The notes below the pieces were generated by a model that was not told the origin of the DNA, did no database searches, and worked only from the letters and a program-made list of their open reading frames with translations. 34,186 nt of DNA, taken from Pseudotabrizicola sp. (lineage in GTDB: Bacteria; Pseudomonadota; Alphaproteobacteria; Rhodobacterales; Rhodobacteraceae). This document shows, one piece after another, positions 2,646 to 9,290 of the stretch. How positions within the stretch are numbered: the stretch's first letter is position 1; each line of letters starts with the position of its first letter. The translations under genes and the position numbers were made by a program. The stretch lies in the NCBI RefSeq assembly GCF_030684215.1, contig NZ_JAUXOV010000051.1, positions 1-34,186 on the forward strand, given 5' to 3'.

Positions 2646-2654
2646 GGGTTCAGG

Positions 2655-3256
2655 TTATGCTGCTTGACGCTGATGGTTCAAGCGGCAGTTTTGGATGGTT
2701 TGGTGTTTGATGCGCCTCCTTTCAGCCAGGATGGTTTCGCCACGGCCAAAATAGACGTCGGCTGGAGTGAGGTTGCCGATGCTCTCGTGGTAGCGGTGGT
2801 TGTTGTAGTGGTCGATGAAGGCGGTGATGGCAGCTTCGAGTTCACCTTCGAAGAAGTAGTTTTCGAGCAAGATGCGGTTCTTCAGGGTCTGGTGCCAGCG
2901 TTCCGTTGCCCGGCAGCGGTTTGTCTTCAAACCGCGAGAGGGGATTTTGCCTTGAGTTTGCGGATGCATCGGAGCGCCGCGAACATGTTTCATGCCCTTG
3001 TCCTCGAGGTATTCCGCCAGATCGCCAGCGATATAGGATGAGCCATTGTCGCCGAGCAGGTGGGGTTTGTGCAGAACCTTGGCGCTGTCGCAGCATGATG
3101 CGGCAAGGGCGAGGTCGAGCGTGTCGGTAACATCCTCGGCCCGCATGTTGCCTCAGAGTTTCAAGCCGATGACGTAGCGCGAGAAGTCGTCGAGGATCAT
3201 GGACAGGTAAAACCAGCCCCAACCGATGACTTTCTGGTAGGTAAAATCAGTCTGCT
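2655..3256 (-). pseudogene. IS3-family transposase orfB remnant (integrase core)
   Basis: The rve-type DDE domain is present: QTDFTYQKVIGWGWFY carries the first catalytic Asp, LLGDNGSSYI the second, and ERWHQTLKN the Glu. Normal C-terminal motifs follow (YNNHRYHESIGNLTPADVYF). The N-terminal helix-turn-helix region is deleted. A TGA at 3153-3155 interrupts the reading after VIGLKL. A 13-codon, frame-preserving insert from hairpin repeat A sits immediately before the catalytic Glu, between QGKI and ERWH. The protein cannot be functional. Confidence 0.85.
2904..2942 (+). repeat. Hairpin repeat, copy A (inside transposase orfB)
   Basis: A 39-bp insert: C, constant arm GTTGCCCGGCA (2905-2915), stem GCGGTTT (2916-2922), loop GTCTTC, stem AAACCGC (2929-2935), constant arm GAGAGGG (2936-2942). 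The boundaries are defined because removing it restores the canonical family string QGKIERWHQTL. The outer CCC and GGG could also pair, leaving a GGCA/GAGA internal loop. Copies B and C have the same arms but different, still perfectly paired, stems. Confidence 0.85.
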
Positions 3257-3293
3257 GTTGCCCGGCAGGTGATGCGTTGCATCACCGAGAGGG
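3257..3293 (+). repeat. Hairpin repeat, copy B (at the orfA-orfB deletion junction)
   Basis: Constant arm GTTGCCCGGCA (3257-3267), stem GGTGATGC (3268-3275), loop GTT, stem GCATCACC (3279-3286), constant arm GAGAGGG (3287-3293). It lies exactly where the last residues of orfA and about the first 145 codons of orfB are missing. Its TGA, read on the minus strand, now ends orfA. It has the same orientation as copy A. Confidence 0.85.
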
Positions 3294-3686
3294 CCCGGTC
3301 ATGTTTTTTTTGAGCAGACGGTTTTCAAGGCTGAGATCGGCCACCAGTTCCTTAAGTGCCAAAGCCTCGGCGCGCAGATCCTTCACCTCGCCTGTATTTG
3401 CCTGGCGGGCCGTGTCACTGGCCAGCCGCTTCTTGCCAGCCTCAAGAAGCTCCTTGGACCAGCTGTAATACAGGCTTTGGGCAATCCCTTCGTTGCGGCA
3501 TAGCTCGGCAATACTGTCCTCACCACGAAGGCCGGAAAGCACGATCCGGATCTTCTCCTCGGAGGAATGCAATTTGCGCCCCTCTCATCGATTCTGCGTA
3601 TCGATTGCCGGGCAACGGTACGCGCGCCGGATGTCCTTCACAACCTGCTCAGCAGGCACCTTCGTCGTCACGGGTTTCTTCATCAT
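3282..3686 (-). pseudogene. IS3-family transposase orfA remnant
   Basis: From the ATG at 3686 the frame reads MMKKPVTTKVPAEQVVKDIR, then enters hairpin repeat C and stops at a TGA within it. The same frame resumes after the repeat as RKLHSSEEKIRIVLSGLRGE and continues through the helix-turn-helix (EDSIAELCRNEGIAQSLYYSW) and the leucine-zipper-like C-terminus (ALKELVADLSLENRLLKKNM). It ends in hairpin repeat B with the extra residues TGPSR. In relatives the KKxM segment is followed by a short acidic tail, which is lost here. OrfA normally binds the IS ends and is joined to OrfB by frameshifting. Confidence 0.85.
3579..3617 (-). repeat. Hairpin repeat, copy C (inside transposase orfA)
   Basis: Read on the minus strand: constant arm GTTGCCCGGCA (3616-3606), stem ATCGAT (3605-3600), loop ACGCAGA, stem ATCGAT (3592-3587), constant arm GAGAGGGG (3586-3579). 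It interrupts the orfA N-terminus between DIRRA and RKLHS. Relatives read DIRRATRK there, so the net gain is about 39 bases and the frame is kept, although the insert brings a TGA. The orientation is opposite to copies A and B. Confidence 0.85.
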
Positions 3687-3708
3687 CTTTAACTCTAACT
3701 GGGGTAAA

Positions 3709-3735
3709 GATGAGCCGCAAACCCTCCGCTACGCA
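3709..3735 (-). repeat. IS3 terminal inverted repeat, orfA side
   Basis: On the minus strand this reads TGCGTAGCGGAGGGTTTGCG then GCTCATC. It pairs with 2623-2645 as an imperfect inverted repeat and begins with TG, as IS3-family ends do. It lies 23 bases outside the orfA start codon. Confidence 0.65.
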
Positions 3736-4172: not shown

Positions 4173-4277
4173 GCTATCCCTTCAGTTTTGTAGACAAACG
4201 GGGAATGGCCGACGGCAGTGGCGTGAACGCCCTATCCGAAGGTCACGGAACACCCCGTCCGTGCAATTCAGTCTGGA

Positions 4278-4475
4278 CGCTGGCAGGTCTCCCGGCTTGC
4301 GGATATCGGGGTTTTCACCCCGGCGCCCTGTCCTCCTTCCCGATCCTGCGATCAGTGGCTTGGACAGACCTTTCCGGTCACGGTCGCGGGGGCGGCTGCG
4401 CTTGGTATTCTGACCGGAAGAGTCAGAAAACCTGTCACATTCCCTTTTCACCAGTCTTACGACAGGCACCAACGC
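4278..4475 (-). promoter_or_regulatory. Cobalamin riboswitch upstream of the DUF1636 gene
   Basis: On the minus strand the leader holds the hallmark blocks in order: GGTGCC, GGTGAAAAGGGAA, GCCGCCCCCGCGACCGTGA, CCACTG, GGGAAGGAGGACA and GCAAGCCGGGAGACCTGCC. This matches the B12-box aptamer. The aptamer ends about 105 bases before the DUF1636 start codon, leaving room for an expression platform that I did not resolve. Confidence 0.9.
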
Positions 4476-4529
4476 TAGTCTGTCTGCAATGACAGAGGCA
4501 CGGGCGAAGTCAAGGAAAAGGGCGAAAGA

Positions 4530-7075: not shown

Positions 7076-8860
<1,785 letters not shown>

Positions 8861-8952
8861 TCTGGCCTAATGCTTTGGTCAGCGTTTCGCAATGGACTCG
8901 TGCAAAGGGAATGCGTGTGTGCTGCGGGATACGGCATCGCCATTACTGTTAT

Positions 8953-8981: not shown

Positions 8982-9065
8982 AAGAGTCTGCGATGTCATT
9001 TCGCGGGGACGTCTGGTCGGAATGCGGCTTGACCCGGCGTGCAAGCGGCGGCAGCTTGCGCGTTG

Positions 9066-9245
9066 ATGGTTCCCGGCCAAACCACGTGCGGTCGGGTGAA
9101 AAGGGAATACGGTGTGGTGTAGGCAAAAGCCGCCAATTCCGTGACTGCCCCCGCAACTGTAAGCGGCGAGCGACCCCCGATGCCACTGGCCGAATGGCTG
9201 GGAAGGCGGGGCAAGCCCAGACCCGCGAGTCAGGAGACCTGCAAT
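9066..9245 (+). promoter_or_regulatory. Cobalamin riboswitch upstream of the broken ABC importer genes
   Basis: On the plus strand the blocks GGTCGGGTGAAAAGGGAA, CCGTGACTGCCCCCGCAACT, GTAAGCGGCGAGC, GCCACTGG, GGGAAGGCGGGGC and GCGAGTCAGGAGACCTGC are in the expected order and spacing. It is divergent from the bluB riboswitch, with about 205 bases between them. The genes it once controlled (binding protein-dependent corrinoid or siderophore importer) are all damaged. Confidence 0.92.
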
Positions 9246-9290
9246 CGAAGTCAGTATTCACCGGGCGGGGTGCCCCGGAAGGAGTCTTCG

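Follow-up and report, generated by a model that had tools for sequence, protein, structure and literature searches.

The window analyzed in this work, a stretch of 34,186 nucleotides from Pseudotabrizicola sp. (contig NZ_JAUXOV010000051.1), contains a degraded insertion sequence (IS) which carries three copies of a short hairpin element (Table 1). This IS was compared with sister IS copies, and its assignment to the IS3 family is taken from the annotations of plasmid relatives. The host copy lies on the minus strand, which places hairpin copies 1 and 2 in antisense, and copy 3 in sense, relative to it. As the original prediction had reported, the 5' foot (GTTGCCCGGCA) and the 3' foot (GAGAGGG) are identical in all three copies and the stems enclosed by them are different. 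One extra base on the 5' side is counted here as part of each insert. Copy 3, whose start had been placed at 3579, begins one base later, at 3580; the loops of 3 and 7 nt in copies 2 and 3 were described correctly, but copy 1, for which a stem of 7 bp and a loop of 6 nt had been proposed, has an 8 bp stem (GCGGTTTG/CAAACCGC) and a loop of 4 nt. Copy 1 is in frame with the antisense transposase frame, which stays open through the element, and its site is empty in the sister IS copies L214–L217 and L219. At copy 2, the host IS lacks 434–435 bp that are present in the compared sisters, and this loss, located exactly at the element, is perhaps the result of recombination between two elements. Three cobalamin riboswitches are also present in the window, within about 5 kb (Table 1).

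Table 1. Positions of the hairpin copies and other features in the window, and of a Y1 transposase frame with neighboring elements at locus L244.
Feature	Sequence	Position	Strand	Foot-to-foot span	Characteristics
Hairpin copy 1	Window	2904–2942	+	2905–2942	5' base + GTTGCCCGGCA + 8-bp stem-loop + GAGAGGG; 39-nt insert
Hairpin copy 2	Window	3256–3293	+	3257–3293	Stem GGTGATGC/GCATCACC
Hairpin copy 3	Window	3580–3617	-	3580–3616	Stem ATCGAT/ATCGAT; near start of first IS3 reading frame (read from sequence)
Degraded IS3-family insertion sequence	Window	2650–3716	-		Host of the three copies; sister IS comparison
Cobalamin riboswitch	Window	4264–4488	-
Cobalamin riboswitch	Window	8686–8871	-
Cobalamin riboswitch	Window	9050–9260	+
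Element	L244 (= L333, genome G104)	902–942	-
Y1 IS200-type frame	L244	1411–1890	+
Element	L244	2013–2049	+

The reading of these segments as a mobile repeat survived genome searches, in which further copies were identified both in the same genome and in other genomes of the Rhodobacteraceae. The exact pair of feet occurs 8 times in the 4.4-Mb genome to which the window belongs and 0 times when a reversed control pattern is used; single feet number 42 as against 8 for the reversed pattern, and a covariance model for which 56 copies, in part those of the window, were used has 14 matches in this genome. When 29 loci, from 42 places, were read for a longer element bearing one foot, no common continuation was found outside the hairpin copies. 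A relaxed pattern revealed a second subtype of the form GTTACCCGGTA...GTAAGGG. The strict pattern is present in 4 of 16 genomes of the genus, including the present one, and a loose pattern in 66 of 394 genomes of the family, 31 of which were judged by eye to have true stems. Among the matches listed, the covariance model detects the element in at least 27 of 40 chosen genomes of the family, viz. in all 20 picked as bearing and in 7 of the 20 picked as pattern-negative, which indicates that the patterns undercount; the highest counts per genome, again among the matches listed, are 36, 22, 21, and 21. Among the GTDB contig matches listed, the exact feet are followed by 4 or more contiguous pairs in 39 of 57 from the Rhodobacterales group and in 6 of 61 from elsewhere, where the former group includes L137, L168, and L177 (non-Rhodobacterales loci placed there by hand) as well as L207 (Roseibium); the corresponding counts with L137, L168, and L177 taken out of the group are 38 of 54 and 7 of 64. 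One plasmid query matched 58 records, among them 38 from Pseudosulfitobacter, and another matched 7; a single query against 50,697 phage records gave 0 matches. The feet are also matched by 25 IMG/VR stretches, 4 of which were judged to be hairpin copies, two of these being the same sequence. These 4 copies (L303, L304, L311, and L323) are located on IMG/VR contigs classed as viral, and L303 and L311 represent the same copy, within a terminator-like repeat.

The usual insert, about 40 nt in size, consists of one C or T followed by [G/A]TT[G/A]CCCGGCA, a covarying stem-loop, and GAGAGGG, with a constant CCC/GGG clamp placed around a 4x4 internal loop. The combination of constant arms and covarying stems that had been predicted is confirmed by comparison with shuffled and slid controls. 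In 56 distinct sequences, standard pairs occupy 90.3% of the pair cells (72.4% in shuffles), 81 cells are changed on both sides (32.1 in shuffles), and the covariation score is 0.427, compared to 0.143 in shuffles and no more than 0.133 with slid partners; 0 of 500 shuffles were as high in any of these three measures. Two of the five measures were no better than shuffles, viz. double-change pairs (6 vs. 5.5) and further pair types (15 vs. 15.1). All six inner pairs change on both sides somewhere in the set, and the outer CCC/GGG is invariant in it and hence provides no covariation evidence either way. Contrary to the original prediction, the stems do not vary freely, and fall instead into recurring classes and lengths. 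Stem mismatches in 105 elements with 824 Watson-Crick pairs, false positives excluded, comprise 28 G.T and 6 A.C (p = 2e-4; 29 and 6 before the false positives were removed), or 18 and 6 when the first pair is left out (p = 0.02), although the counts are few and the elements are related, so that these p values are optimistic. A duplex palindrome would be indifferent to G.T versus A.C, and the excess of G.T thus suggests that the working form is probably one folded GTTG strand, of either DNA or RNA. The elements are slightly stop-poor, with a mean of 5.1 of 6 frames open compared to 4.5 with random stems, in counts that include the false positives L114, L147, L198, and L211. No Rfam family reached its gathering score on any element in the window or in 18 element loci.

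Comparison with empty sister sites provides evidence that the elements were inserted precisely and that target duplication is absent; the sister IS copies are without these segments, against the possibility that they are native to the IS. Of 89 copies submitted to this comparison, 32 (several of which share a site) had a counterpart, and the insert exceeded the foot-to-foot length by 1 nt in 20, by 2 nt in 6, and by 3 nt in 1, and equaled it in 3. Precision to within 0–3 nt is therefore seen in 30 of the 32, the two with a larger gap being window copy 2 and L080, in which an apparent gap of 221 nt was observed. A clean case is provided by Tabrizicola piscis, in which an IS66 transposase carries the element in frame inside an annotated 525-aa frame; two IS66 copies of Gemmobacter aquarius with about 92% identity to it are 39 nt shorter at the element. 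Both the existence of this hairpin family and its precise insertion are well supported. In a set of 119 copies, collected with a fuzzy rule over all loci and holding at least four false positives (the same four loci), 98 of 104 GTTG-type copies have C as the additional 5' base, and 14 of 15 GTTA-type copies have T there. In the same set, the target logo of the GTTG subtype is C-A/G-T-C before the insertion and G after it (preferred target CATC^G), and the base after the insertion is C for the GTTA subtype (preferred target CATC^C). A target formed by the loop of a small inverted repeat was also considered and rejected: a repeat of at least 5 bp is found at 5 of 116 sites (the four false positives included), compared to a mean of 5.8 when flanks were shuffled among elements.

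Many of the copies reside in transposase genes. Of 115 copies, counted with 16 loci excluded, 66 have a transposase from a panel of 24 no more than 150 nt away, and are antisense to it in 40 cases and sense in 26; the panel was drawn from the same loci with family labels assigned in this analysis, and hence this proportion is a rough lower bound. The frames flanking 84 copies, in both senses and with five loci removed by hand ahead of the scan, match many transposase families, of the IS3, IS5, IS91, IS66, IS110, IS21, and IS1595 kinds, and further transposase families (the best 25 of 33 families) were recognized around copies without a panel match in a follow-up scan of 118 of 124 frames around 33 of 49 such copies. 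The bias towards IS is best read as survivorship together with hitch-hiking, with a preference for IS DNA as a possible alternative. Some copies are found outside IS, in intergenic repeats or near ordinary genes. In L070, L071, L073, and L074 (one genome) and in L196, the elements adjoin another dispersed intergenic motif like CTTCATCTTGCNAAATAAACTC. At some loci, between three and six elements are crowded into about 1.5 kb, with stems that are mostly different. Local copying was rejected as a general origin of such clusters on account of these differing stems, and it may apply at the exceptions, viz. L139, which has two like stems in its cluster, and L202, in which two are nearly alike.

We favor, with a probability of about 0.53 and on the basis of sequence comparisons, the explanation that the hairpin is a tiny non-autonomous element which is mobilized in trans in the form of a folded single strand, with insertion sequences as its carriers; we infer that its movement as a single strand, considered by itself, is likely. 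The GTTG strand would fold into the hairpin, as single-stranded DNA or RNA, and an enzyme encoded elsewhere would recognize the constant feet and join the hairpin 3' of a CATC-like target; the persistence and spread of the element would then depend mostly on insertion sequences, on which it rides as a passenger. In-frame copies would be tolerable as about 13 extra residues and other copies should break the transposase, and the stems would change by drift together with either pair-restoring selection or palindrome correction. A double-strand MITE, whose ends an ordinary DDE transposase cuts in duplex form, would likewise be small, dispersed, non-coding, and situated in IS-rich DNA; however, the elements have no terminal inverted repeat beyond CCC/GGG and no target duplication, and they show the G.T/A.C asymmetry, which together make this origin quite improbable. 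Filler DNA captured during break repair might produce gaps such as those at window copy 2 and L080, but the precision of nearly all compared copies and their common target motif render it barely credible as an explanation of the family. It is also improbable that the hairpins are mini-introns or bypass elements that are removed or skipped so that transposase is still made. In several hosts, frames are indeed long and open when the elements are disregarded, in some cases several elements at once; in most compared pairs, flank substitutions concentrate at third codon positions, and the reading phase is usually kept from one side of the junction to the other if the insert is ignored. However, many hosts are degraded, and the occurrence of copies in both orientations means that an RNA signal would also have to work backwards. 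When inserts are taken as the foot-to-foot length plus 1 nt, a length divisible by three is found for 31 of 103 (the four false positives included), and the frame test speaks weakly against removal or skipping: in-frame inserts account for 7 of 15 copies in hosts whose frame is open over 300 nt to either side and for 22 of 84 others (p = 0.10 with false positives dropped; 9 of 18 vs. 22 of 85, p = 0.04, before their removal), with p = 0.54, 0.40, 0.18, and 0.08 at 150, 200, 250, and 400 nt.

The favored explanation must also be weighed against inheritance, in which the elements are old passengers that descend with the IS, are kept by selection as useful to it, and are occasionally lost precisely. 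All 11 same-site pairs identified by an automatic rule, with flanks 60–95% alike, share a stem class by eye, which fits shared descent or a matching of site and element better than random reinsertion, and similarity is usually higher between the elements than between their flanks. Occupied copies are closest to each other, and the empty one is farther, in the groups L064/L193, L139/L143, and L057/L058; an IS appears to have been copied while carrying its two elements in L081/L082, where a 1.18-kb stretch occurs at two places in one genome with 99.7% identity; and runs of equal model scores (scores alone, among the matches listed) are seen in G022, G050, G082, and G260. On the other hand, two same-site pairs outside the automatic rule (L159/L170 and L149/L195) differ in their stems, and for L019, L036a, and window copy 1 the occupied copies are no nearer to each other than to empty ones; L069 is nearer to the empty L022 than to the occupied L036, and L019, L048, and the empty L137 are about equally distant. 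Such mixed trees are compatible with repeated insertion at the same site as well as with old inheritance combined with precise loss, and we consider selective retention of old passengers rather unlikely as the overall account. A search for gene conversion between occupied IS copies, in alignments with some misaligned rows, found no clear rise in identity beside the junction.

With regard to the enzyme responsible, the hairpin could belong to the REP-like palindromes, with a RAYT/IS200-type Y1 tyrosine transposase as its mover, and would then simply be a new family of that system. The tagged hairpin, the tetranucleotide 5' of the insertion, and the absence of target duplication resemble this system, whose REP features are described in the available text of PMC3733652. 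Y1 genes (PF01797) are found in 9 of 34 bearing genomes but not in the other 25, nor was a match detected in the genome of the window despite its 14 copies, and the foot is not GTAG. Among the 15 Y1 loci searched, only 2 have an element match at E < 0.01, and a third has a weak match at 0.04. At L244 one element lies on each side of the Y1 frame, in opposite orientations and about 470 and 120 bp away (Table 1), the right-hand copy being degenerate; the weaker copy (19.4 bits) is in an apparent IS5-type remnant, so that this neighborhood may be just an IS cluster, and it is a lead and not proof. At a second Y1 locus, L249 (= L343), there is a partial element match which ends at the contig start. 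Movement by a Y1 enzyme of this system is on this evidence possible, though unlikely. Y2 (PF04986) likewise has no match in the genome of the window; it is present in 12 of 34 genomes taken as bearing and in 8 of 34 taken as non-bearing, a control group that is not clean in view of the model matches in pattern-negative genomes, and regrouping of 40 genomes by the covariance model (11 of 27 bearing vs. 2 of 13 others) decides nothing. A linked transposase, for which the original prediction had proposed a search, was sought as Y1 and Y2, and none was established as the mover. The choice of target might lie with the element itself. In 107 sites, excluding false positives, the base at foot position 4 is linked with that immediately right of the insertion (z = 15.8, 0 of 1000 shuffles), and a weaker link joins stem position 4 to the base lying four to the left (z = 4.9, 1 of 1000); the ties of stem 3 (z = 3.5, 5 of 1000) and foot base 1 (z = 3.4, 11 of 1000) are not safe, as the ties first surfaced over 93 sites in 336 tests. 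These relationships could represent either a guide code or just subfamily history, and a programmable single-strand element of about 40 nt, whose own foot and perhaps stem pick the target of a new hairpin integrase favoring insertion-sequence DNA, is a speculative and decidedly unlikely reading.

These hairpins constitute a real and apparently undescribed family of tiny mobile elements in Rhodobacterales, of a REP-like kind. Searches of open-licence PubMed Central for the 11-base foot as text found nothing related by title, and searches there for palindromic or hairpin mobile repeats found no title or abstract describing the family. The earlier opinion that no named element has this layout holds insofar as the family is apparently undescribed, but its nearest published relatives are REP-like tagged palindromes and hence it is not without kin. 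The family offers mobile elements of very small size whose occupied and empty sites are clear, its fixed feet and many covarying stems represent a natural experiment on hairpin recognition, and transposase genes dotted with smaller mobile pieces, at least one of which encodes in-frame extra residues, are an instance of parasites of parasites.

GTAG REPs and REPINs, which have RAYT transposases and for which movement as a single strand is proposed, are likewise tagged and non-autonomous hairpins; in the present family, however, there is no GTAG foot, the genome of the window has no Y1 gene, and a single genome contains different stems between constant feet. Elements of the IS200/IS605 type have hairpin ends, insert 3' of a short target without duplication, and possess bases tied to that target, whereas here the whole element is one hairpin and the genome of the window is again without Y1. 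The hairpin feet do not look like the RYYYAAC/GTTRRRY boxes of integron attC sites. Rickettsia palindromic elements are, in the available text of the source, likewise palindromes inside protein genes and sometimes in frame, but they are about 150 bp in size and occur in metabolic genes, unlike the present elements of about 40 nt, which are mostly in transposase genes and whose inserts are in most cases not multiples of three (PMC10969869). The repetitive hairpin elements of sponge mitochondria are also mobile hairpins, recognized in organelle genomes from sequence comparison, as far as the available text describes them (PMC2800124). The closest published match is the CGTC palindromes, described in the available text as mostly alphaproteobacterial short tagged hairpins with no dedicated transposase known and heterogeneous stems, some of them in genes (PMC3733652); what moves repeats without a transposase of their own is an open question for these palindromes, to which the present family offers an entry point. 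The tag of the present elements is [C/T][G/A]TT, within a foot [C/T][G/A]TT[G/A]CCC in aligned copies, in place of CGTC/TGTC/CCTC, and their 3' end is GAGAGGG in place of an unpaired CCA-like tail; they differ further from CGTC palindromes, as portrayed in that text, in their CCC/GGG clamp, 4x4 internal loop, strong residence in IS, and few copies per genome (PMC3733652). The complementary AT residues given there for the first two stem pairs of CGTC REPs (PMC3733652) are not characteristic of the present family, in which the first inner pair is GC in 46, GU in 6, and AU in 4 of 56 sequences, and the second is GC in 35, UA in 14, CG in 6, and another pair in 1.
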